Origin: Anaerobaca lacustris
Lineage (GTDB): Bacteria > Planctomycetota > Phycisphaerae > Sedimentisphaerales > Anaerobacaceae
Direction of reading: 5' to 3'
Length of the DNA stretch: 64,000 nucleotides
Assembly (NCBI RefSeq): GCF_030012215.1
Contig: NZ_JASCXX010000004.1
Location: 62,001-126,000 of the forward strand
The position numbers were made by a program, and so were the translations under genes. Below are positions 21,917 through 45,384 of the stretch, in pieces. The stretch's first letter is position 1. Each line of letters starts with the position of its first letter. The notes under the pieces were generated by a model. That model did no database searches. It saw only the letters and a program-made list of their open reading frames with translations, and was not told the DNA's origin.

Positions 21917-22285
21917 CTACGGCCGCCCTGACAGGCGTCTAATACGGTGTCGGGACTCTTCGACGACGACAATCGCGCCTTGTTCCAGCGCTTTGTGTGA
22001 ATCCTTCAGAACCGTGTTCAATCGATCCATCACGTGCGACGCGCGGGTGTCGTGCAGGCGGAACAACACCACACCGACGGGCTTGCCGCCGGAGAGGGCG
22101 ACGATCTCGCCAAAGTCGAGGTCGAAGGTGAGAATGATCCTGTTCTCAGAGGCCGCCTTTGCGAATATGGCGCCGCTCGCCATACGCTGGAGTCCTTCCT
22201 CGCGCAGGTGGATTGCATCGTGTCCATTGGCGCGTAGCCATTCGACAATCCGCAAGGCGACTCCCATATCCGCAAGAAATCGCAT
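21917..22285 (-). CDS. DUF5615 PIN-like protein (putative toxin)
   Basis: 122 residues from the ATG at 22285. It begins MRFLADMGVALRIVEWLRAN and continues HDAIHLREEGL, IILTFDLDFGEI and GVVLFRLHD, the Mut7-C/PIN-like core of DUF5615. The conserved acidic residues (Asp6, and the TFDLDFG pair) are those expected of a PIN-fold nuclease. The longer open frame upstream covers the antitoxin gene and is rejected. It lies 8 bases after the DUF433 gene, its usual partner antitoxin, so this is a toxin-antitoxin-like pair. RNA cleavage is inferred from the fold. Confidence 0.82.
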   Translation of the reverse strand: MRFLADMGVALRIVEWLRANGHDAIHLREEGLQRMASGAIFAKAASENRIILTFDLDFGEIVALSGGKPVGVVLFRLHDTRASHVMDRLNTVLKDSHKALEQGAIVVVEESRHRIRRLSGRP

Positions 22286-22293
22286 GGTTCTCC

Positions 22294-22506
22294 CTATGCG
22301 GTATGCACTTCCTCCTGGGTCAGCCAGGCGGCGTAGGCCAGGGCCTGATGGATGTCTTCCGCTTCCAGATCCGGGTAGTCGGCCAGGATTTCCTTCTGGG
22401 TCGCACCATGAGCAACCTGGCCCACAATCACCGACACGGGGATGCGCATGCCACGAATGCAGGCCCGGCCACCCATGATCTGCATTTCGAATGTGATGCG
22501 GTCCAG
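22294..22506 (-). CDS. DUF433 antitoxin-like protein with non-canonical start
   Basis: About 70 residues, LDRITFEMQIMGGRACIRGM then PVSVIVGQVAHGATQKEILA, the DUF433 HTH-like fold. Homologues start just before LDRI, but here the codons are ACG (22509) and CTG (22506), with a perfect AGGAGG 12-15 bases upstream and no ATG, GTG or TTG at that place. Either CTG/ACG is used, or the start has mutated. It is the first gene of the leftward DUF433-DUF5615-YgiT operon. A frame reading further upstream has no family-like sequence. If not translated, the downstream toxin would lack its antitoxin. Confidence 0.72.
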   Translation of the reverse strand: MDRITFEMQIMGGRACIRGMRIPVSVIVGQVAHGATQKEILADYPDLEAEDIHQALAYAAWLTQEEVHTA

Positions 22507-22611
22507 CGTTCCGATAGGACGCCTCCTGAAAACAAGACATCCTATTCTAACATGCACGGGTGGCGGTGGCAAGCGACGCTTGGCGATGGGAGACGCCCGA
22601 AGTGAGCGCAT

Positions 22612-22667
22612 AAAAATAAGGAGACGAGGGCGACAAGGAGTGCAACTGGTTGTAGGCCCGTCTCCTT
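22612..22667 (-). terminator. Terminator after ligA-ribD
   Basis: Long stem: AAGGAGAC..GGGC (22618-22631) pairs with GCCC-GTCTCCTT (22656-22667) with a two-base bulge. On the minus strand it is followed by ATTTTTA. About 155 bases beyond the ribD stop; it separates this operon from the toxin-antitoxin genes. The rest of the 22507-22821 gap shows no gene. Confidence 0.7.
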
Positions 22668-22821
22668 GTTGCGATGTGCCGTATCGCACATACCGCGGTT
22701 TGTGCTTTCGAGACCAACTGATCTCCGTATGCACCCGCAACATCCATAGTATACGACGAAGCGGCCGCCAGGTCAAATGATTTCTCTCGCGGCGCGCCCT
22801 TTTTCCAGTCGGGCGAGGCGA

Positions 22822-26295: not shown

Positions 26296-26778
26296 TCACC
26301 GCGACGGCGCCGTTCCACCGAATTGGCCGGTGGCCGGATCGTAGATGAACGTGCCGCGCGTACGCGACGTGATGTACACATATCGGCCGTTGATGCGAAG
26401 AATCGCTTCAACCGTCTGCTTGTCAAGAACACGGGCGGCGCCGGACAGCAGCAGCGCGCTGTGCATGTCCCTGCCGAGCTCGATGATCAGGTCGTCGGGG
26501 AAGCCGATCCGACGCATGATGCGCACGATGTCGTCCGAGCTGAGATCGGCCACTTCCTGGTTGCTCTGCGGCACAATCTGAATCCCCCGCACCTGACGCG
26601 ACGGCTGTGCCTGCGAGGGCTCGGCCGTCCGACTGGGCGCACTGCGCCGGCTCCCGGAGCCGAGTTCGGACCATTCGGCCGGCTCCGCCCGACATCCCGC
26701 CACCACCGCAAGCACCGCCGAGGCCAGCAGTGCCGCGATGGCCACCGTACCTGCTATCTTCTGTCGTCTCATCCGCAC
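26296..26778 (-). CDS. Small lipoprotein of unknown family, last gene of the secretin locus
   Basis: About 160 residues from a GTG at 26778 (AAGGAG ten bases upstream); an ATG at 26772, and one at 26805 just after the secretin stop, are alternatives. A lipoprotein signal is clear: KIAGTVAIAALLASAVLAVV followed by AGC, with a lipobox cysteine. A serine/proline-rich linker follows, then a compact domain (SSDDIVRIMRRIGFPDDLII, RTRGTFIYDPATG). The family is not recognised. Its position directly after a secretin gene suggests a pilotin-like partner that helps the secretin reach or insert in the outer membrane; that is inference. Confidence 0.65.
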   Translation of the reverse strand: MRMRRQKIAGTVAIAALLASAVLAVVAGCRAEPAEWSELGSGSRRSAPSRTAEPSQAQPSRQVRGIQIVPQSNQEVADLSSDDIVRIMRRIGFPDDLIIELGRDMHSALLLSGAARVLDKQTVEAILRINGRYVYITSRTRGTFIYDPATGQFGGTAPSR

Positions 26779-26806
26779 GGCTTCTGCGCTCCTTGGCTCA
26801 CGCATG

Positions 26807-29800
26807 TCATCTCAGGCGTGTTATACTATCGCGAATGTCGGCGTCGGAAAGGCCGCTCCTCGGCGCCTGGCCCGACGCCCCTGTACCGAGAGGCAGCGGC
26901 TGTATCTGCGGCGACGACGCACGAACGGTCGTGCCGTCGGGCACCAGATGCGCCGTCACGAATACGGCGATCTCCTTCGATACCTGCGTGCCGTCCGTGT
27001 TCTTGAACAGCCCGCCCAACAGCGGCAGGTTGCTCAGGCCAGGCACGCGCTTATCGGTCTTTCGCGAGCGGCTCTCGGTCAATCCGGCCAGCGCGACGGT
27101 ACCACCGTCCTTGACGGTGACAACGTTCCTGGCAGTGCGCCGGGTCACCACCGGAAGCTGGGTACTGGAGCCACTCGGGATGCTGTCACTGACCTCTGTG
27201 GCCATCTCCAGCGTGATGTCGTTGTTGTCGCCAATCCGCGGCATGATGCTCAATTTCGTCCCGGATTCGATCATCACCATCTCAGACTGCATATAGAACG
27301 TACCCAGGTTGGCCGTCTGCGGCGTCAGGATGTAGTACTCCTCTGTCAGGACGCCGAGTTCCGACATCCGCCCGTCCTGTGCCAGGACCTGCGGATTCGA
27401 GACCACATCCGCCTGGCCGTTCTGCTGGAGCAGGTTCAACGCCATCAACAGGGAGTTCGTGAAGGTCCCATCGGGCGTGTACCCCATCTGGATACCCCAG
27501 GGCCAACTGCCCCCGCCGTTATCGAGGTCGAACGACGTGCCGAAGGCACCCATACTGATCTGCGGCCAACCCCACTCGACGCCGACATTGAGCAGATCGT
27601 TGCGTTCCATCACGACCACGCGGGCATCGAGCAACACGTGTCGTGGTTTGAGATCCAATCGCTTGATCTCGTTGACGATCCGCCGGGCCAGGTCCGGAGG
27701 CGCCGTGACCGACACAACGCGGCTGTTCGGATCGTTGCTGACCCGGACGTAGCTGGTGAAGGCGGACGACAGAAGTTCGGTGACACGCACCGGGACACGG
27801 TAGTTGAGGAACACGTTGTGCGTCTCACTGATCTCCGCAAACGCATCGCTGCCCACGCCGCGATCGGCCACCAGGTAGTAATCCGGCGTCCTCTGGACGA
27901 CGAACGGCGATCCGGCCAGGATGATGCGAAGGGCCGTATCCAGGTCCACTTCGTGCAGGTCGGCGAAGACCTCGCCAAACACATTCGGGTCCGGAACGAT
28001 CGTCACACCCGCCGTCATGGCAACCGTCTGCAACACGGTACGCAGGTCATCGCCCTGGAAGGTGTTGGTGATCGGCATATAGACAAGATACGTATCCCCG
28101 ACGGCCTTGAACTTGTACGATGTCTGTTCCAGAGTCCGCTGCAATGCCAAGGGCACCTGAGCGGGCGTCAGAAGGCTGATGTCGAAATCGATGGAGATCG
28201 GGGTCGGCTTGACCGTCGCATCGACCGCGATCTTCACGCCCGTCTGCTCGTAGATGCGCGTCAGAACGTCCAGCACGGTATACCCTGCCGTGGCAGGAGC
28301 CAGCAGACGACCGGGCTGCGACGGCGTCCGAGTCGGCGGTTGCGACTGCACCGTAGGCAGTTCATCCTCCAATCCCGGCTGAGCATCGGGCCCGTCACTC
28401 AACGTCCGGAGGGCCTGGTTCTCCTGCAACAACCTCTCGATCTCCGTCATCAGGCGCCGTCGCTCGGGGTCCGTCTCGGTGTCCGGTGTCGTGGACATCG
28501 AAGGCGGCTGTTCCACAGGAGTTCGAGCCGGCGGTGTCACATCCGCGGGCCGCTGCGCCGGTGGCGTTGTCCGCGCCGGCGCCGTCCTGTCGATGTTCTC
28601 CGTCACGTTGAGGTACGAAATGCTGGCCGGATCGAACTCAAACCCTTCCTTCGCGAAGACCAGGTCGCCGGTCCAGCCGTAAGGCACCTGAATCGTGTAC
28701 TTGCCCTCGAGGTTCGTGATAGCGGTGGTGCCGCCAGGATCGGCGGTGATGGTCACGCCCTCAATCGGCTCGGTCCCATCGAAGACAATGCTGTCGATGA
28801 TCGTCATCATCCTCACCCTGCCGGTGAAACTGACGTTGGGCACGTTCTGCGCCACCGTCTCCAACATCCGGTTGGCCGGGGTAAAGGTGTACCCATCTCT
28901 CGTCGGCGTGATCCGTCCCCGCCAGCCGTAGTCGACCGACAACTGGTATTCGCCGTTGCCGTCGGTGATGGCGGTCCCGCCGTTGTTGTCGGCGACGACG
29001 TTCACGTTTGCCACCGGACCGGTCTCAGACATGACCTTTCCGGAAACCGTCAACTGAATGGCGCTGGCCTGGAAGTCCTGGCTCATCTGAGAGATGAGCA
29101 ATTCCTCATAGGACCGGCTGCCGGGCTCAAACGTATATCCCGGCCTCCTCGGGGTCACCGTGCCCTTCCACTTGTGCGGCACGATGGCGCTGTACGATCC
29201 GTCCGCTCCGGTCACGGGTCGATTCGGCAAACCGTCCATCATGACGTTTGCCAGCCCGACGTTGCCGGAGATCGTGTACGTGATGGGGGTGCCCTTGAAG
29301 TTCTGGTTCGTCCGATCGGCCGTGATGGAACTGAACATCAAATTGCCCGGATCGAAAGACCAACCCTCCTTCACGGGGGTAACCGTGCCGGACCAGGCGT
29401 ACTCGACCTTGACCGTGTAGAAGCCGGTGGCGTCACTGGTCGGGTCGCCCGGCAGCCCTTCGAGCTTGACGCCGCCGGTGCCGGTGTTGCCGGAGATGGT
29501 CAGTTGAACGATCTCCGCACTGTAGTTTTCGTTTTCGCGGTCGACCACCACCTTGGTATAGGCCTTGCTGGCCGGTTTGAAGGTGTATCCCGCCCGCACC
29601 GGCGTGACCTTGCCGTCCCAGCCGTAAGGGACGCTGACCGCATAGGAACCATCCATGTCCGTCATGGGATTATCAGGCAGCCCTTCCAGCGTCACACCCG
29701 GCAGACCGACCGAGCCGCTGATGCGGAACATGGACACATGCGCGGTGTAGTTCTCGTTGGTCCGTGGCTCGAGAACATCGCTGTAGTCCTTGCTGGACGG

Positions 29801-30517
29801 GGTGAACGTGTGTCCATCCTTCGTGGGAGTGACCGTTCCCGACCAGCCGTAGGGGACCTCGACTCGATAGGTACCGCCGCCGGCCGTGACCGGATTGCCG
29901 GGCAGGCCTTTCATCGTCACGCCTTCGGCGCCGGCCGAGCCGGAGATGGTGAACCGAACCTCCTTCGCCACGTAGGTCTCGCTGCGGAGATCCCTCTCAA
30001 CCGGGGCGTACACCTTGGAACCAGGCTCGAATTGGTAGCCGATCTTCTCGGGGATCACCATTCCGCTCCAGCCGTACTCGACCGTCGTGCTGAAACGCCC
30101 GGATGCATCGGTGACCGGGTTGTCGGGGAAGCCATTCATGGTCACGCCCGGCTGACCCACCGAACCGGAGACAGTGAACTTCATCAGGTCCGCCGAATAG
30201 TTCTCATTGCTCTGATCCGCCTTGACGTTCTGATAGCTCTTCTGTTTGGGCTCGAACGTATACCCCGTCTTGACCGGCTGGACGGTTCCGCTCCAGTTAT
30301 AGTTCACCTCAGCGGTGTAAACACCGTTTTCATCGGACGTTGGCTCCCCAGGCAGCCCCTGCATCGTGACCCCCGGCAGCCCCACGTTGCCCGAGATGGT
30401 GAACGTCTTCATCCTGGCCACGGTCCCTTGACTGTACGTCGCCGGCGTGAACCACGACATCACGCAGAGGAACATCACCCCGCCCGATAAAATCTTACCG
30501 ATATGTTGCCTTGCCAT
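26807..30517 (-). CDS. Secretin with eight N-terminal Ig/CNA-like modules
   Basis: 1236 residues. A signal peptide (GGVMFLCVMSWFTPATYS) is followed by eight modules of about 75 residues with the pattern FTISGxVGxPGVTMxGLP, YGWSGTVTP, GYTFxPxSKxY, like CarboxypepD-reg/CNA-B beta-sandwich repeats (residues about 37-645). A proline-rich linker with a short coiled coil (RRLMTEIERLLQENQALR) leads to secretin N-domains and the secretin core: VVSNPQVLAQDGR, VVTRRTARNVVTVKDGGTVA, LAGLTESRSRKTDKRVPGLS and LPLLGGLFKN, close to GspD/PilQ. Secretins form outer-membrane rings. No ATPase or inner-membrane platform gene is nearby, and repeats at this end of a secretin are unusual. Confidence 0.88.
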   Translation of the reverse strand: MARQHIGKILSGGVMFLCVMSWFTPATYSQGTVARMKTFTISGNVGLPGVTMQGLPGEPTSDENGVYTAEVNYNWSGTVQPVKTGYTFEPKQKSYQNVKADQSNENYSADLMKFTVSGSVGQPGVTMNGFPDNPVTDASGRFSTTVEYGWSGMVIPEKIGYQFEPGSKVYAPVERDLRSETYVAKEVRFTISGSAGAEGVTMKGLPGNPVTAGGGTYRVEVPYGWSGTVTPTKDGHTFTPSSKDYSDVLEPRTNENYTAHVSMFRISGSVGLPGVTLEGLPDNPMTDMDGSYAVSVPYGWDGKVTPVRAGYTFKPASKAYTKVVVDRENENYSAEIVQLTISGNTGTGGVKLEGLPGDPTSDATGFYTVKVEYAWSGTVTPVKEGWSFDPGNLMFSSITADRTNQNFKGTPITYTISGNVGLANVMMDGLPNRPVTGADGSYSAIVPHKWKGTVTPRRPGYTFEPGSRSYEELLISQMSQDFQASAIQLTVSGKVMSETGPVANVNVVADNNGGTAITDGNGEYQLSVDYGWRGRITPTRDGYTFTPANRMLETVAQNVPNVSFTGRVRMMTIIDSIVFDGTEPIEGVTITADPGGTTAITNLEGKYTIQVPYGWTGDLVFAKEGFEFDPASISYLNVTENIDRTAPARTTPPAQRPADVTPPARTPVEQPPSMSTTPDTETDPERRRLMTEIERLLQENQALRTLSDGPDAQPGLEDELPTVQSQPPTRTPSQPGRLLAPATAGYTVLDVLTRIYEQTGVKIAVDATVKPTPISIDFDISLLTPAQVPLALQRTLEQTSYKFKAVGDTYLVYMPITNTFQGDDLRTVLQTVAMTAGVTIVPDPNVFGEVFADLHEVDLDTALRIILAGSPFVVQRTPDYYLVADRGVGSDAFAEISETHNVFLNYRVPVRVTELLSSAFTSYVRVSNDPNSRVVSVTAPPDLARRIVNEIKRLDLKPRHVLLDARVVVMERNDLLNVGVEWGWPQISMGAFGTSFDLDNGGGSWPWGIQMGYTPDGTFTNSLLMALNLLQQNGQADVVSNPQVLAQDGRMSELGVLTEEYYILTPQTANLGTFYMQSEMVMIESGTKLSIMPRIGDNNDITLEMATEVSDSIPSGSSTQLPVVTRRTARNVVTVKDGGTVALAGLTESRSRKTDKRVPGLSNLPLLGGLFKNTDGTQVSKEIAVFVTAHLVPDGTTVRASSPQIQPLPLGTGASGQAPRSGLSDADIRDSITRLR
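28580..30409 (-). repeat. Tandem array encoding eight Ig/CNA-like modules
   Basis: Aligned positions at the start of the first seven modules fall at 30395, 30170, 29945, 29720, 29495, 29270 and 29045, exactly 225 bases (75 codons) apart. An eighth, more divergent module follows after a 246-base step. The protein motif is kept but DNA differs between copies, so this is an old, selected array, not a recent slippage product. Confidence 0.88.
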
Positions 30518-30623: not shown

Positions 30624-32465
30624 CTACAACTGAATCTGGATCGGGCCCCCGACATCGTCGAGTGACACGCCCTCAACCACTTTTCTTCCACCCTCATCCT
30701 TAATGCGGATGGCTGCTTGACGTTGAGCGGATGCCCCCCCGGCGTATTGCAGTACGGCCGTCAGATAGTACGTCTTGTCCGGCGGAACCGAGGCCACATC
30801 CAAAACCGCTGTGAACTCGCGCCTCTCCAGAGGCAGCATACTGGCCCTCTGATTGGCGGTCCCACTGCTCATCTGGAGATTCCGCCATGTTGCCCCCGTC
30901 GTGCCGGCGGCGGCCATCTCGGTCAGGTAGAGACGGCAGCGGGGCAGCACGTGCACGTTGCCGATGTTCGAGAACGCAGCGGTGACGATATACCGTGCCG
31001 GCCCCGATTCGACGTACCTCAACTGGTCGTCTTTGACACGAGGGGCCCCTTGGACTCCCTGCGTGTTCAGATAGATCAGACCCTCCGTGCTGCCCGCGAC
31101 CTGCCCGCTGTCATACGTGGCATTCAGTCGGAGCGTCGCATAGTAGTGCGGCAGAGGGTTGGCCAGATTCGTCGGCATACTGGAGACGATTCTCAGGTTC
31201 TGCCGGCCGTACCCCCGCAATGTGAACTGCGTCGGTTGGACCGTCACCCAATCCACGCACCCGAAGTCCTGACCCCTGATGCTGTTGCCTTGTTCATCCA
31301 CGAAGGCCCGAACGGTCATGTGGTCCGGCAGCAGCAGCGCTGCGTCGACCGTCACCGGGTCTTCGGACGCGTTGGCGACCTGCATGGTGGTCATCCGCGT
31401 GGCTCCGGGCATGACGTCAAGAGGCACGTCTCTCGGGTCCAGATCGAGCGCCGCATCCAACACGAATGGCCTGGAGCCTGCGTCGCCCGAGAACTCGATC
31501 TCTCGTCGGATCGTGCCGGCCACGCGCCGGTTGACGTAGAGCGCCCCCTCGACCCTGTATTTGCCCGACGGCAACTGCCGCCCAATGTCCTGCTGAAGAT
31601 TGACCTTGACGCCGGGAAGGACGCCCGCGTCGGGGTATTCGATCTCCGCGATCCTCTGCCAGTGCCCCCCTCTCTCACCATAGACGCGGGTGACTCCGAC
31701 CACTCGCACATAGGTCCGCCCAACATTGTCGATCGTCAGGCTGACCAGAGTCGCCGATGGATCGAAATCACTGGCCTCTCGAAATGTCAGATCGGCGTTG
31801 ATCAGCTTGATGTCATCGCGCACCGCACGGCCCTGTGCAGTGATGATCACCGGAACCAGGAACTGAAGGACCACAGGTGTTTGCACTCCCGTGTCCTCGT
31901 CGACCACGGTCATTCTGGTCTGGGCGACCAGGGCGGCAGCATAGTCACCCTGCACGCCGGGGGGCACCTGGACCCAGAGATTCATCGTCTTGCGCTCAAG
32001 AGGCCGCAAATCCACGGAATCCACGTCCAGGCGGAGCCACCCGGCACAACTGCGGATTTTCGACACGTCCACCCGAACCGGCTGATCGTCGGTGCCGGCA
32101 TTGACCCATCGCGCGCCGTTCGGGTCGGCGATCACCTGGGCATCCGGCTCGATCGTCTGCCATATCCCCAGCGAATCCTGGGTCAGGTCCAGCAACCGCA
32201 GATCGATGGTCGCCGGGGTGGTCGTGCTCTGGTTCTCAATGGCGAACGAGGTCACCGTCCGCTTGTTCGGATACGTCGCCAGGTTGACCCGCATCGGCTG
32301 GACCATGAACTGCCCAAGAGCCGAACCGCATGTGACCAGGACCAGCGACAAGATCCCCATGAGCCGGGCCGGCGACCATGCGCCGGCACGACGCACAGGC
32401 CGTGCCTGATGCCCTGAGGGGTGCAAATCCATTCGCGTCGATCGCTTGTCACGTGCACTTGCCAT
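30624..32465 (-). CDS. Secreted chaperone-like (PapD/CsuC-type?) beta-sandwich protein
   Basis: 613 residues from the ATG at 32465; the frame is open for 84 more codons upstream, but those cover the promoter and leader. A basic n-region is followed by a signal segment LMGILSLVLVTCGSALGQ. The mature start, FMVQPMRVNLATYPNKRTVT then FAIENQST, is the pattern of periplasmic pilus chaperones (PapD/CsuC). A second copy-like domain begins DVPLDVMPGATRMTTMQVAN. At over 600 residues it is much longer than classic chaperones (about 240), so it may be a scaffold or a double chaperone. It is 106 bases before the secretin. Function inferred from fold-like pattern and position. Confidence 0.65.
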   Translation of the reverse strand: MASARDKRSTRMDLHPSGHQARPVRRAGAWSPARLMGILSLVLVTCGSALGQFMVQPMRVNLATYPNKRTVTSFAIENQSTTTPATIDLRLLDLTQDSLGIWQTIEPDAQVIADPNGARWVNAGTDDQPVRVDVSKIRSCAGWLRLDVDSVDLRPLERKTMNLWVQVPPGVQGDYAAALVAQTRMTVVDEDTGVQTPVVLQFLVPVIITAQGRAVRDDIKLINADLTFREASDFDPSATLVSLTIDNVGRTYVRVVGVTRVYGERGGHWQRIAEIEYPDAGVLPGVKVNLQQDIGRQLPSGKYRVEGALYVNRRVAGTIRREIEFSGDAGSRPFVLDAALDLDPRDVPLDVMPGATRMTTMQVANASEDPVTVDAALLLPDHMTVRAFVDEQGNSIRGQDFGCVDWVTVQPTQFTLRGYGRQNLRIVSSMPTNLANPLPHYYATLRLNATYDSGQVAGSTEGLIYLNTQGVQGAPRVKDDQLRYVESGPARYIVTAAFSNIGNVHVLPRCRLYLTEMAAAGTTGATWRNLQMSSGTANQRASMLPLERREFTAVLDVASVPPDKTYYLTAVLQYAGGASAQRQAAIRIKDEGGRKVVEGVSLDDVGGPIQIQL

Positions 32466-32688
32466 ACTGCATCTCTCACAAGTTGTCTCTCTTGCCGATC
32501 TCGGACGCATGGTCCGTGCCCTGATCCCGGACCAATTACGCTGTTTTTCACCTTTTCGGCATTCCAAACAAGGCACTTGCCCCGTTTCTTGTGATTTCCC
32601 CATGAACCACCCCCAAATCAACCATGCCGCCCCGCAATGGGAACCTGCCTTCCCGGTACCCAAAAATGCCCTGGATTTCACACTGCCC

Positions 32689-32717
32689 AGACTACCAAAA
32701 TCCCCTTTGTTTGTCAA
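32689..32717 (-). promoter_or_regulatory. Promoter of the chaperone-like/secretin genes
   Basis: Minus strand TTGACA (32717-32712), 17-base spacer, TAGTCT (32694-32689). Leader of about 215 bases to the start at 32465. The leader is unusually long and G-rich; no known riboswitch recognised. Confidence 0.6.
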
Positions 32718-33068: not shown

Positions 33069-33557
33069 CTACGGCAGACCCTGAGGGGCAACCTTCAGCG
33101 TAACGGTCGCAACCTGCACGTCCTTGGTGCCACCAAGGAAACCGCCGGTGCCCAGCTCAACGTCTTTGGCCACTGCCTTGACGGTGACGGTGCCACCACC
33201 AGCCGACAACGTGTTCGGGGTCACGCTGGACTCGAGACCACCCGCCCAGCTCCCGACCTTCGAGATCGAGGTGCTCAGCTGCATATCGAAGTTGCACTGG
33301 ATCGCGACGTCGGTCTGACCTTCGTAGCGGTGCTTGCCAGCGCCGGCCGCACTTGTCTGCGCCAGCTTGATCTTCAGCTTGTCCTGATCCTTGATGAGGA
33401 CCCAATACCCGATGTCCATCAGGACCGGGATCTTCGTGATGTCTTGCGTTGCCCACACGGTCGGCCAGTTGGTCAGCTTGATCTCGCCAGCCGGGGCCAT
33501 CGAGGCAAGCAGAGCAACCAACGCCACTGCAAGAAGACTTTTCTTCAACATCTTCAC
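33069..33557 (-). CDS. Small secreted beta-rich protein, candidate fibre subunit
   Basis: 162 residues with a clear signal peptide (MLKKSLLAVALVALLASMAP, cleavage at AGE); start supported by GAAAGGAAG. The mature protein is strand-rich and low in helix: IKLTNWPTVWATQDITKIPV, QCNFDMQLSTSI, GGGTVTVKAVAKDV and a last strand VQVATVTLKVAP. That layout, an Ig-like domain ending in an alternating strand, is seen in major fimbrial subunits. It has its own terminator and lies between a second such protein and the chaperone-like gene. No family assigned; a structural subunit role is inferred. Confidence 0.62.
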   Translation of the reverse strand: MKMLKKSLLAVALVALLASMAPAGEIKLTNWPTVWATQDITKIPVLMDIGYWVLIKDQDKLKIKLAQTSAAGAGKHRYEGQTDVAIQCNFDMQLSTSISKVGSWAGGLESSVTPNTLSAGGGTVTVKAVAKDVELGTGGFLGGTKDVQVATVTLKVAPQGLP

Positions 33558-34012: not shown

Positions 34013-34474
34013 TCAGGATCCCGGCATCACCGTGATAACCAAGGCGCCACCGTAACGGCCCTGTGGATACCGCTCTGCGCCTTTGACCTTCACCAGAAGG
34101 TTGAGCCCCACGTCCTCGCCAGCCAACGACGTTGGTCTCGGCGAATGGGCCACGGCTACCCGGCCCTTCTCAATGGGAACCTCCTGTCCGTTGACCGCCA
34201 CCGACAGATCCGCTGCCGATATCACTGCCTTGCCCTTCTCATGGCGGAAACTCTCGAACGTAGCCGCAACATGATACGGACAATTCGCCACGACCCGCGC
34301 CCACAACTGAACCTGAAATGACCGCGGCGCAGGTCCCCACACCGTTCCCAACTTCGCCGGCGCACCCTGAAACGACACACTCACAAAGGGCGACGCCATG
34401 TTCATCGCGGAGGCAGCGTCCGAAACCGCCAGACACGCCGCGAAGACCACAAAAGTCTTTGCCAGATTTCTCAT
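34013..34474 (-). CDS. Small secreted beta-rich protein, candidate second fibre subunit
   Basis: 153 residues, GGGGGGTGA ribosome site, signal peptide AKTFVVFAACLAVSDAASA. The mature part has NCPYHVAATFESFRHEKGKA in the middle and ends QGRYGGALVITVMPGS, reminiscent of spore-coat-U / CsuA-like pilins, where a Cys and a G-x-Y-x(G/D)-x-V-T-V last strand are typical. It is the first gene of the leftward set, downstream of two good promoters. An adaptor, tip or minor subunit is likely. No family claimed with certainty. Confidence 0.6.
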   Translation of the reverse strand: MRNLAKTFVVFAACLAVSDAASAMNMASPFVSVSFQGAPAKLGTVWGPAPRSFQVQLWARVVANCPYHVAATFESFRHEKGKAVISAADLSVAVNGQEVPIEKGRVAVAHSPRPTSLAGEDVGLNLLVKVKGAERYPQGRYGGALVITVMPGS

Positions 34475-41172: not shown

Positions 41173-44100
41173 TTACTTCTTTGGATCCTCTGTGGGCCAG
41201 TCTCCGGGGATGAGGATCTCGCCGATCAGTTCGCCGTCAGTCTCATCCTGACTCCAGTCGGTGAAGAGCATGAACGACAGATCCTGCTTCGCTCCGGTCT
41301 GGTCGTACAGTTCGGTCCACTCCCAGACGGCAGTCGCCGCCGTCGGACTCAGTTGCCCGGCCACGGCACCGCTGTTTCGGCCGGCGCCGATCATCGCCAG
41401 AACGTCCTCGGCGCTGAGGGCAACACCGAAGATGCGGACATCGTCGAGCCGTCCATTGAAGAACTCCGCCGTCTCGTCGCCTCGCACACCGATGGTCAGC
41501 GCCGTTTGGGTCGGTGCGACATAGCCGGTGGACTGGGTGGCGGTCCCTGCGAGCACACCGTCAATGTAGAGCCTCATCTGGCGTGTCGAGGCATCGTATG
41601 TTGCAGTCAGCAGGTACCACTGGTTGGCGTTCAGGCTTCGCGTCGATTGGGCGGTGGTGAGGCCGACGCGGAAGTGGAACCGGCCGTTCGCGTCGATCCA
41701 CAGTCCGAAGCGATTGCCGGCGGTGCTGGCGCGGTCGTATTCCATGATCGCCTGCCACCGGCCTCGAACCTCGCGGGTATTGACCCAGGTCGAGACAGAG
41801 AACGAGCCGGGAGCGAAGTCCAGACCTCTGGGCTTGCTGACGCGAACGTATGCGCCGCGGCCGTCGAGGTCGATGGCCCCGCCGATCTGACCTTCCGCCG
41901 GCCGCCAGACGGGATTGCCCACGAGCATCCCGTCGTTGCCGTTGCCCGAGCTGTCGGCGGCAAGAGCGCCGGCGGATTCATCGAGCTTCCAGTGGGCCAG
42001 CGATCGGGCGCCGGACAAGGTCCAGGCCGTATGCGGATGGTTCGTCCAGCCCCAAGCGTACTCGGTCGACCGGAGGTCTTCGTAGACCGCTGCGATGCTC
42101 AGCCAGTAGATGTCGCGCGGGTTCTTCTGCACGAACCATGCGTCACGCGGCAGTTGCAGCGTGTAGCGGTAAACCGGCTCGAAGCCACGCATGTCGGTTT
42201 GATCGGCTTCCGGGTGCTTGTCGAAACCGACCATCACCTCGTCAAAGTCCTTGGAGGTATACTCCCAGATCTTCTCTCCCGGATAGCTGTATGTGGTCGG
42301 GTCGCCCGGCGTTGGATCCGGCGCGTCCGACCAGATCGCCAGTGAGAAGTAGTCGGGCTGTCGCGGCGGCGTCATCTGACTGCAATCGCAGGGCTGGTAC
42401 CCATAGCCGATGTACGAGCCCCACCAGACGATTCCCGTCACCGGTGCCGCGCTGGTGCATTGCCAATCGTCGGCGACCAGTCGCCGGTACGTCAGGCCGG
42501 CACCGGACTGCTCGGTTCGGATTGCGAACGCCAGATCGAATGGCTGCAACGCCAGCGTATGCCCCCTCGGATAACGTAGTTGCTGCCAGGTGCCGTGGTA
42601 GGGCTCCTGCGCCTGCACCCAGACCGCCGAGTCGTTCCATTGGTCGGCCGAGGCCTTCCACCCGAAACGCGTCGCCGGGCTGCCGGCCTTTTGCAGCACA
42701 TACGCCTGGGCACAAAGCCAGTAGACGGTCGGCCGGCTCGGCGATCCGGTCTGCTCGAACGCTTCCCGTCGATCGATCGGGAAATCGTATCGGTAGACCG
42801 TCAGATGGCTGGCAGGTTCGTATGCCAGGTTGCACGGGCTGTAGAAACCCTGAGCCCTGGCATCGATGGAGCGCACGGTGAACTCGTCGGCGGCAAACTC
42901 CCTGGTCCAGAGGACCTTGCCGGGCATGCTGTAGCGGACAGCGCCGTCGCCGGCAGGGACGTCCTCGCGGATCGTCAGCGTGAATACGACGTTGCTCGCG
43001 CTGCCGCTGGGCAGAATGTCGTTGTACCACGAACCCCACAGCGTGATGCCGGTAATCGGACCGGTCGTCGTGCACTCGAAGTCGTCGGCGGCGATCTGGG
43101 CGGCCCAGGTCACGGGGAGATCCCTGGTGATATCGACGTCGATTCCCGTGCCCGCCATGTCAGGGTCCTGGACCCACTTGTCCAGCGCCATCGGCCCGCT
43201 GGTCGCCAGCGACTCCTCATCCTCGTAGTGCTTCCAGTTGCGCAGCCCGGTGAACGACTGCTCCCACTTGATGTAGTCGGGGTCGGTGTTCAACTCGAAC
43301 GCCATGTCGTAGGCGTTGAGACGCTCGCAGACGAGGGAGTTGGCGATCGGCTGAACGACAGCCGCATCGACGGTCATCCCCTGCCGCAGGTCGTCCGTGC
43401 GGAGGCTGAAGGTGACCGCCGCATCCATCCACGATTCGCCGCGGCTCATCCAGCCCCAGGGATAATCCGGCGCAGGCGACCCGGTGTACACGGCTGTGAT
43501 GCTTACCCAGAAGATGCTGTCGTGCGTGTGGTTCTCGACGTAGTCGCCTTGGCGGAAATGCTCACGGGCGTCCAGATCGACGTGGTACCGGAAGCACGTG
43601 TCGGAAGGTCGGTTGGGGAACTCGCCAAAGCCGGCCAGCTCTTCGGCGACGCGCCCGGCCTCGGCATCGACCAGCCAGAGCAGTCGGCCGGGCCGGCTGA
43701 ACGGATACCGGCTGTCGGCCGGAACGTTGCTCCAGAACCCGATGCGCCACGACTGCGGCCTCGTGCGAGGCGCTTCGACGCCATCCCAGTTCTGGTACGA
43801 GCCCCACCAGTGAACCGACGTCACCGGCATCTGGCCGAAGCAGCGGAAGTCGTCGGCCACGATCTTCCACGAACCCTGCGCGACATCCAGTGGCTTGCTC
43901 GCATAGGAGGGCTCGCCCCACCCACAGTAGATCGGTATCCCGGAGACGGGGTCCCACTCCAACGCCGGCTGCGACCATTTCAGATGCTCAATCGGAGGCG
44001 TGCTCGGAAGGACCGACTCCTCGATGCGGACCATGTAGTCCTCGACCTCGCCGTCGGGCGCCGGGCCCGTGACGCGCAGACCGCGCATCGTACTGAAGCG

Positions 44101-45075
44101 GAACCGCACGAACGTCGCACCCGAGGCTGCTTTGGCCGGCACGTCCAGTGTAAGCGTGTTGACGCCTGCAACCAGGGGCACATCGACAAACACGTGCTCG
44201 CCGGCGTCGTCCCAGTCGCCGTCGGCGTTCCAGTCGATCCATGCGTTCAGCGCGCCGGCCACCGACGCGGTCACCTCGACCGTCGCCGACTCACCGAGAA
44301 CCAGATTCGAGAAGACGACACCGTCTTCATCACTGAGGCCATGAAGATCATCTCCGCTGGCAGTGGCGTTGGGCTGGCCGTCCGGCTCGGCGTCGATAAG
44401 GCGACCCAGATGGATCCCCGGAACGACGGCATGACGGGCGCCATCGTTCTTCAGCAGCGTCGGATACGTCGGATCGGGCGCATCGCCGAACTCGTACTCG
44501 TCCGCGGGGACCTCGTCCGACACACACTCATGGCTGATGCGTCCCTGGATTCTCACGTTCTCGCCCCGGACGTCGATCGAGATCCAGGTCGGACAGAACT
44601 CGGAGATCTCGAAGGGTGCATGGATGGAGATCGAATCGCGAATCTCCATCCGCGCCACCAGTTCCGCGCGTCGGATCACCTGCCGTTCATGGTCGAGCCC
44701 TCGAAGATCACGAGGCAGAGGCGGAGCCTCGGCGTCCGACGGCCAATTGGCCGTCGTCCAGTTCAACGCCACTTCCATGTAGCTTCGGGTTGAAGACGTC
44801 GGGTCGAGAATGACGACATTCAAATCCACCGACACCATCTTGGTGCCCCGGGGATTGTGCGGACCGTTGTAGAACCATTGGGCCCACCAGTCGGTGTTGG
44901 GATAGTAGTACCAGGCCCCCCGTTCGTATCCGGTGCCCTGGCCGGCGATCATCTGTCCGGCTCGGTCAAACTCCACTGTGAACTGATCGGTCGCGGCCCC
45001 GGAAATCCCAACACCCAGCATCCAGATCGATGCGGCGATCGCAACCCGTGCGAACGTTGCTTTCAGTCCGCTCAT
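41173..45075 (-). CDS. Large secreted protein with GEVED, three repeated beta domains and LamG
   Basis: 1300 residues from the ATG at 45075 (GGGAGGA upstream); the longer frame is not family-like. Signal peptide IAASIWMLGVGISGAATDQ. About residues 200-345 form a GEVED domain (YEFGDAPDPTYPTLLKNDGA, DEDGVVF, DGEVEDYMVRI). Three related blocks follow, each opening with a VADDF(R/E)C..PVT.(V/I).WWGS pattern (FRCFGQMPVTSVHWWGSYQN; FECTTTGPITGITLWGSWYN; WQCTSAAPVTGIVWWGSYIG). A LamG domain lies near the C-terminus (LAHWKLDESAGALAADSSGN, RLDDVRIFGVALS). It is probably a surface glycan- or protein-binding molecule. No catalytic site is seen, nor a sorting tail. Confidence 0.88.
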   Translation of the reverse strand: MSGLKATFARVAIAASIWMLGVGISGAATDQFTVEFDRAGQMIAGQGTGYERGAWYYYPNTDWWAQWFYNGPHNPRGTKMVSVDLNVVILDPTSSTRSYMEVALNWTTANWPSDAEAPPLPRDLRGLDHERQVIRRAELVARMEIRDSISIHAPFEISEFCPTWISIDVRGENVRIQGRISHECVSDEVPADEYEFGDAPDPTYPTLLKNDGARHAVVPGIHLGRLIDAEPDGQPNATASGDDLHGLSDEDGVVFSNLVLGESATVEVTASVAGALNAWIDWNADGDWDDAGEHVFVDVPLVAGVNTLTLDVPAKAASGATFVRFRFSTMRGLRVTGPAPDGEVEDYMVRIEESVLPSTPPIEHLKWSQPALEWDPVSGIPIYCGWGEPSYASKPLDVAQGSWKIVADDFRCFGQMPVTSVHWWGSYQNWDGVEAPRTRPQSWRIGFWSNVPADSRYPFSRPGRLLWLVDAEAGRVAEELAGFGEFPNRPSDTCFRYHVDLDAREHFRQGDYVENHTHDSIFWVSITAVYTGSPAPDYPWGWMSRGESWMDAAVTFSLRTDDLRQGMTVDAAVVQPIANSLVCERLNAYDMAFELNTDPDYIKWEQSFTGLRNWKHYEDEESLATSGPMALDKWVQDPDMAGTGIDVDITRDLPVTWAAQIAADDFECTTTGPITGITLWGSWYNDILPSGSASNVVFTLTIREDVPAGDGAVRYSMPGKVLWTREFAADEFTVRSIDARAQGFYSPCNLAYEPASHLTVYRYDFPIDRREAFEQTGSPSRPTVYWLCAQAYVLQKAGSPATRFGWKASADQWNDSAVWVQAQEPYHGTWQQLRYPRGHTLALQPFDLAFAIRTEQSGAGLTYRRLVADDWQCTSAAPVTGIVWWGSYIGYGYQPCDCSQMTPPRQPDYFSLAIWSDAPDPTPGDPTTYSYPGEKIWEYTSKDFDEVMVGFDKHPEADQTDMRGFEPVYRYTLQLPRDAWFVQKNPRDIYWLSIAAVYEDLRSTEYAWGWTNHPHTAWTLSGARSLAHWKLDESAGALAADSSGNGNDGMLVGNPVWRPAEGQIGGAIDLDGRGAYVRVSKPRGLDFAPGSFSVSTWVNTREVRGRWQAIMEYDRASTAGNRFGLWIDANGRFHFRVGLTTAQSTRSLNANQWYLLTATYDASTRQMRLYIDGVLAGTATQSTGYVAPTQTALTIGVRGDETAEFFNGRLDDVRIFGVALSAEDVLAMIGAGRNSGAVAGQLSPTAATAVWEWTELYDQTGAKQDLSFMLFTDWSQDETDGELIGEILIPGDWPTEDPKK

Positions 45076-45384
45076 GACGTGTTCCTCCCAAAAGACGACC
45101 CCGCGCGGCACCCGCACAATCGCTCCCGATCCCCATCGGGGGACGGGTTCGACTGCACTTCGGCGGCGCACCTGTAACCTATAGTTCCACTCCTGCATCG
45201 ACTCGTAACGGTTTTTCCTCAAGCAGAAAGTGGACGAGGCGAGTGAAAAAGCCTCGGTTCGTCGGTGGCAGCCGTTCCCCAGGGGGTCCGAAGGTCTGAA
45301 ACCGGCGTGGCATCGCCTTAGGCAAATCGTTATAAGACCTGGGCATGGGTACACCAGGGCTCACGGCGAAGAGTCAGAACCAAG
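45076..45384. other. Intergenic stretch, nothing recognised
   Basis: Upstream of the large surface protein. A few AT-rich blocks (near 45165-45185 and 45325-45335) could be promoter elements, but none forms a clear pair. No gene. Confidence 0.4.

Follow-up and report, generated by a model that had tools for sequence, protein, structure and literature searches.

Secretins are known to serve as exits for type II, type III, type IV pilus and phage machines, whose power comes from inner-membrane ATPases. Most secretins of type IV pili carry one or two N-terminal beta-sandwich domains, B1 and B2 (PMC4471445). In the present work we analysed a stretch of 64,000 nucleotides from Anaerobaca lacustris (contig NZ_JASCXX010000004.1, positions 62,001 to 126,000 of the forward strand; hereafter the window, whose own numbering is used unless a contig or locus is named), in which the secretin gene at 26807–30517 encodes eight beta-sandwich modules ahead of its secretin core. 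This gene belongs to a five-gene operon that also encodes a lipoprotein, a large chaperone resembling WxLIP and PapD and two small, pilin-like proteins. The operon, which was absent from the first-pass annotation of this DNA, is the larger finding and the main clue to the function of the secretin. We would give roughly even chances to the reading that it encodes a chaperone–secretin pathway, in which the secretin takes the usher's place as exit or assembly platform in the outer membrane and the array provides fixed-length periplasmic arms.

The secretin gene and its parts are as follows:

26807–30517, minus strand: eight-module-array secretin, 1236 amino acids, whole gene with ATG start (PF00263 match and orthologs)
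28580–30403, minus strand: array of eight carboxypeptidase-regulatory-like beta-sandwich modules, residues ~39–646 (module starts, self-identity and Pfam)
27644–28072, minus strand: N0/STN-like and N1/Secretin_N-like domains, residues ~816–958 (Pfam profiles and alignment to PilQ structures)
26942–27433, minus strand: secretin ring domain, residues 1029–1192, with the VPGLSNLPLLGGLFKN motif (PF00263; own-genome match C4:88942–89433 in contig coordinates)

From its N-terminus, the product consists of a Sec signal peptide, the eight modules, a Pro/Thr-rich linker with a short heptad-like stretch, the N0/N1-like domains and the secretin domain. PF00263 (Secretin) is covered at profile positions 1–168 of 169 with an E-value of 5.3e-33 and 114.4 bits against a cut-off of 27.5, and the protein is a genuine secretin with a full-length C-terminal domain. 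The first-pass annotation had thus placed a secretin with an eight-module N-terminal array correctly, the open reading frame being exact on the minus strand, and its description of the C-terminal part as a secretin is borne out by the profile search. Its assignment of a GspD/PilQ-type core stands insofar as GspD and PilQ are the best profile matches of the core, but the curated NCBIfam cut-offs are not reached (GspD 140.4 of 351 bits, PilQ 114 of 284, SctC 92.8 of 238). Similarly, STN (residues 853–883) and Secretin_N (904–958) lie in the expected order and place, yet both score below their curated cut-offs, and alignments to the PilQ structures 4av2 and 4ar0 begin at residue 815/816. A putative second N0-like copy at residues 738–812 reached a z of 2.9 against shuffles and is not claimed. 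A plus-strand open reading frame at 26738–30490 overlaps the gene; every homology match lies on the minus strand, and we read this frame as a by-product of base composition. A scan for consensus promoters and terminators returned fewer sites than were found in shuffles.

Within the array, the first seven modules start at residues 39, 114, 189, 264, 339, 414 and 489, that is, at six exact steps of 225 bp, in agreement with the spacing counted by hand in the first-pass annotation. The eighth module is more widely spaced and starts at residue ~570–581. Protein self-identity at lags of 75, 150 and 225 residues is 0.35, 0.33 and 0.29, compared with 0.07 +/- 0.03 for the background, and since the value at the 75-residue lag so exceeds the background, the period is not due to chance. 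The consensus module reads FTISGsvGxxGVtMxGLPGnpVTDxnGxYsaxVpYGWsGTVTPxKeGYtFxPxskxYxxVtxdqxNQdYtA. The modules had been called Ig/CNA-like; their beta-sandwich nature holds, whereas CNA-B and SdrD are absent from the Pfam matches and CarbopepD_reg_2 (1.9e-9) and CooC_C (1.6e-7) fit instead, module 7 being the best stretch. At the DNA level the modules are old: identity between them is 0.51–0.63 and Tandem Repeats Finder reported no array at the module DNA, which together rule out a recent tandem duplication.

The full-length secretin is also encoded elsewhere in the genus and by further genera of the family, the named ones being metagenome-assembled genomes of Phycisphaerae/Sedimentisphaerales. 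Every intact chaperone-linked ortholog examined, from more than 10 genera, has exactly eight modules. Modules 1, 7 and 8 are position-specific across genera, while modules 2–6 are largely interchangeable by sequence; an orthology fixed at all positions is only partly true, with 45% of best matches on the diagonal. The count remains constant despite this interchangeability, which suggests selection on array length. Because it lies N-terminal to the N0/N1 domains, the array should sit in the periplasm, as first proposed, a placement deduced from secretin topology. The first-pass annotation had also suggested that the array could reach to peptidoglycan or hold substrates. Eight extended Ig-type modules would measure ~25–35 nm, about one periplasm width. 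Module-bearing proteins were also seen elsewhere. In genome G027, two of them (L068:4540–7335 and L071:9140–12592) combine eight modules with a shortened secretin and have no chaperone operon; they are possibly a free-standing derivative of the arrayed secretin. A protein of genome G023 (L072:5995–8856) has seven modules, an unrelated Gly/Met-rich C-terminal tail, no secretin match and sigma-factor-like genes before it.

The remaining genes of the operon lie on the same strand, three of them upstream and the lipoprotein gene downstream of the secretin gene:

34013–34474, minus strand: small Sec-exported protein, 153 amino acids, pilin-like by sequence pattern only (alignments)
33069–33557, minus strand: small Sec-exported beta-sandwich protein, predicted pilin-like, 162 amino acids (AlphaFold, Foldseek and VIA-align)
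30624–32717, minus strand: predicted large WxLIP/PapD-like periplasmic chaperone, open reading frame of at most 697 amino acids (AlphaFold, fold search and WxLIP sequence match)
26296–26805, minus strand: lipoprotein, 169 amino acids, pilotin-like by position (alignment and synteny)

Besides the window, 15 loci hold the full set of five genes, among them some that lack the flanking ligA, ribD, mgtE and kinase genes. In every complete ortholog locus the secretin is found together with pilin-like subunits and a WxLIP/PapD-like chaperone. The lipoprotein gene starts 1 bp after the secretin gene and its Gly-Cys lipobox is invariant in 13 homologs. The start of the chaperone is uncertain and lies probably nearer the signal peptide, the mature N-terminal Gln being near base 32312. 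The gene of the 162-residue subunit is duplicated in two related loci, while the 153-residue protein has an ANCPYH motif and the C-terminal pattern PAGRYxGALVITVMP. Both small proteins carry ordinary Sec signal peptides with no prepilin motif by eye; together with the beta-sandwich folds, this ruled out type IV pilins as neighbours, again by eye. Searches of PDB and Pfam with the sequences of the two small proteins gave nothing of use and no WxL profile was among the Pfam matches. Sequence matches of operon proteins to 2jna, 2a3m and recA were dismissed as signal-peptide or chance matches.

The chaperone was modelled with AlphaFold from 11 sequences at a predicted local distance difference test (pLDDT) score of 84.6. 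Residues 1–281 of the model were superposed best on WxLIP of E. faecium, with Z-scores of 18.0 and 17.9 (EfmWxLIP1, 233 residues), and pilus chaperones also matched this N-terminal part: CsuC at 12.5, SfaE at 12.5, FimC at 12.2 (residues 1–269) and CfaA at about 12 (1–273). On the second half, matches were found to YadV (Z 12.4, residues 287–533), Caf1M (12.3, 216–534) and a PapD entry (within 216–535). The model suggests that the chaperone carries two PapD/WxLIP-like two-domain units, and the case for a chaperone fold in this predicted structure is strong. WxLIP also provided the sole PDB sequence matches of the chaperone profile (E 0.017), and the PapD_N profile was matched in 0 of 20 genomes. 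Long multi-Ig ciliary proteins were the top Foldseek matches of the whole chaperone; they were set aside for their large root-mean-square deviation, and domain-level matches were preferred. In the model, the C-terminus is formed of beta-strands and a polar tail (GGPIQIQL), with no long terminal helix.

The AlphaFold model of the 162-residue subunit, built from 12 sequences, has a domain from residue 52 onwards, mostly at pLDDT ~90, and an N-terminal extension (24–52) that is strandless and outside the fold. Its first Foldseek matches were chaperone-usher pilins, namely the PapG pilin domain (1.2e-3), CS20, CfaB and CS17, and VIA-align gave a Z of 6.4 to the PapG pilin domain. We regard the support for a pilin-like predicted fold as moderate to weak. 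WxL structures do not appear in the list of fold matches of this subunit, an absence that excludes nothing.

A sister form of the system exists in which the secretin has no array. Such secretins, of ~450–650 residues, adjoin a chaperone of the same kind in 22 loci from nine Planctomycetota families and at least two classes. Chaperones of this simple form are mostly half-size and match that of the arrayed form at 99% in profile comparison; Pfam WxLIP_PGBD is matched in a simple-form chaperone at 2.3e-5, slightly below its curated cut-off. Most simple-form loci encode two or three small beta-proteins that are mutually paralogous. A strand-like segment (CDITVTVDxIIEW) is present N-terminally in two of the three paralogs and absent from the third, which is how the shaft and tip subunits of strand-exchange fibres would be expected to differ. 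Since equivalent operons exist with array-less secretins, the array is an extra that the basic system can do without; it is a lineage-specific addition. Genome G033 holds both forms. In genome G120, locus L177 was seen to combine an arrayed-type operon, with lipoprotein and doubled chaperone, with a secretin that has no array, and the array is therefore optional or was lost there.

The secretin tree groups the chaperone-linked secretins all on one side of a branch (98/98), apart from the other 11 of the A. lacustris genome. Three rows were left out of this tree, and an earlier, more crudely cut one gave the same grouping (100/98). The array-less secretin of G120 falls among or beside the arrayed ones; a single clade of arrayed secretins that leaves it out was compared by the approximately unbiased test (p 0.155). 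The genome as a whole has ~12 secretin genes (loci L017–L027), with very different N-terminal builds, several of them near T2SSE ATPases. A further protein of 1635 residues (G000:C2 L028:6639–11546, plus strand) joins an M56 metallopeptidase, BlaR1-like by eye, to degenerate secretin stretches with four matches; it has longer relatives (1801–2416 amino acids) in G002, G003, G004 and G036, whose stretches are 40–48% identical to the arrayed secretin.

The neighbourhood of the operon contains no gene for an ATPase, an inner-membrane platform or an usher. For the T2SSE ATPase there was no match within the window (C4:62001–126000), the nearest on the contig being at C4:206007, 80 kb outside. The usher profile PF00577 was found neither in the own genome (0 of 1) nor in the other carriers (0 of 24), with a positive E. 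coli control.

According to the chaperone–secretin pathway that we propose, the small beta-sandwich subunits (34013–34474 and 33069–33557) would leave the cytoplasm via Sec, and the large chaperone (30624–32717) would cap them once they reach the periplasm. The secretin ring (26807–30517), assisted by an outer-membrane lipoprotein of pilotin type (26296–26805), would then give them passage across the outer membrane or serve as their site of assembly there. Because no ATPase, platform or usher is encoded nearby, the drive for assembly would come from folding or strand exchange, on the model of chaperone-usher pili, and donor-strand fibres could result. The eight-module arm of each protomer probably spaces, anchors or docks the ring against peptidoglycan, the inner membrane or chaperone–subunit complexes. 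More broadly, and at slightly less than an even chance, the two forms may represent a separate outer-membrane pathway of Planctomycetota, with pilin-like subunits, WxLIP/PapD-like chaperones and a dedicated secretin in place of the usher, to which one lineage has added an eight-module arm as a ruler or docking tower.

Several points weigh against the chaperone–secretin pathway. A secretin commonly operates together with an inner-membrane machine powered by an ATPase, and profile searches may miss a very divergent usher. The pilin match of the 162-residue subunit is weak, since an E-value just above 0.001 and a Z of 6.4 may mean a shared Ig-like arrangement only, and an unrelated peptidase fibril scores a Z of 6.9 against the same subunit, above the PapG domain. 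The 34013–34474 protein has no PDB or Pfam match, its pilin likeness being a matter of sequence pattern. Between the small proteins of the arrayed and simple forms the profile comparison is non-significant (best probability 34%), a value that does not demonstrate common descent. We infer the fibre from genes and predicted folds, and the pilotin role of the lipoprotein from its lipobox and position. The 19 T2SSE-like matches in the genome could act in trans, and together with the ~12 secretins and the GspD and PilQ matches of the core they count for the view that this is an extra secretin serving a type II secretion or type IV pilus machine of the usual kind, with ATPase and platform genes at other sites in the genome, its neighbours being cargo or unrelated envelope proteins. 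We find this improbable: the scores fall far below the curated cut-offs of GspD, PilQ and SctC, the chaperone-linked secretins group apart from the genome's others, the five-gene set recurs in 15 further loci with no ATPase travelling along, and the prepilin motif was not seen by eye in the small proteins with their ordinary Sec signals.

The best chaperone match also stands against a pilus, for WxLIP belongs to the surface of Gram-positive bacteria, where its partner is put on display and not exported as a pilus. Perhaps the chaperone-like protein holds the small proteins in a static coat of the envelope, at the cell wall or outer membrane, and the secretin merely lets them out, no polymer being formed. 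In favour of such display, the C-termini of the simple-form small proteins are G-x-Y...T/W strands, which resemble WxL domains. Among the structural matches of the chaperone, WxLIP leads by a wide margin, with a Z of 18 against ~12 for pilus chaperones. WxL clusters, too, contain two WxL proteins, one small and one larger, alongside WxLIP, a hairpin of which is predicted to slot into WxL (PMC10599100). Yet the chaperone has two chaperone-like units and shows no C-terminal transmembrane helix like that of WxLIP, the 162-residue subunit matched pilins first and not WxL, and three paralogous subunits that differ in an N-terminal strand fit a polymer better than a static display; we consider this reading unlikely. 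As for the array alone, it may be a binder of peptidoglycan or matrix, maybe a mobile binding domain, or an ornament, and not a spacer, which would be compatible with a chaperone–secretin pathway. The proteins that bear modules without an ordinary secretin (seven modules in L072, a shortened secretin in L068 and L071) speak for this, whereas a fixed count of eight over more than 10 genera and position-specific modules 1, 7 and 8 would be unusual for an ornament and suggest a constraint on length or position. We hold it to be possible, on the doubtful side.

Elsewhere in the window, overlapping small open reading frames at 21917–22776 (minus strand) resemble by eye a DUF433/DUF5615 toxin-antitoxin-like pair, and a 1393-residue protein with DUF7901 repeats, GEVED and Laminin_G_3 at 41173–45354 (minus strand) is likely a large surface protein.

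If the chaperone–secretin pathway is true, chaperone-assisted assembly by strand complementation needs no usher, and the WxL-WxLIP surface system of Gram-positive bacteria is linked to the pilus chaperones of Gram-negative ones. The strict eight-module arm would be a rare testable case of a length constraint in the periplasm. Moreover, the surface structures of Planctomycetota are poorly understood, and the locus supplies concrete candidate genes for them.

With PilQ and GspD (TIGR02515, TIGR02517) the arrayed secretin shares a homologous C-terminal secretin domain and N1-like and N0/STN-like domains. Unlike PilQ, it has eight carboxypeptidase-regulatory-like modules in place of B1/B2, and unlike both it has no ATPase or platform genes alongside and is linked instead to a chaperone and beta-sandwich subunits. 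In common with chaperone-usher pili (archaic Csu, alternative CS1/CFA-I, classical Pap/Fim), the system has small Sec-exported subunits of predicted beta-sandwich type, a predicted periplasmic chaperone of Ig-type fold (Z ~12) and no energy source in the operon and, in the simple form, one subunit paralog without the N-terminal strand segment. However, a secretin occupies the outer-membrane position, and the usher, the defining test of that family, was not found by profile in the genomes searched; the chaperone resembles WxLIP more closely and has two units in the arrayed form, and PapD_N gave no match in 20 genomes. As to the WxL-WxLIP clusters of Gram-positive bacteria (PMC10599100), a WxLIP fold (DUF916-DUF3324) in the chaperone and small beta-proteins clustered with a WxLIP-like protein are shared, whereas the host is diderm, the partners are a secretin and a lipoprotein, no C-terminal transmembrane helix was seen in the chaperone model and no WxL domain was recognised in the small proteins; the resemblance of the system lies in the chaperone only. 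In the open-access papers searched (subscription journals and preprints not covered), we met neither a secretin with eight fixed modules nor one in partnership with a chaperone and pilin-like proteins. The array had first been thought to be without precedent; this holds for the number of modules, their family and the fixed count, which are new, and not for N-terminal beta-sandwich domains as such, which were already known in ones or twos (PMC4471445). If a chaperone–secretin mechanism is demonstrated, the system would be categorically new. A chaperone, pilin-like subunits and a secretin, working without ATPase or usher, would join two systems that have so far been held separate.

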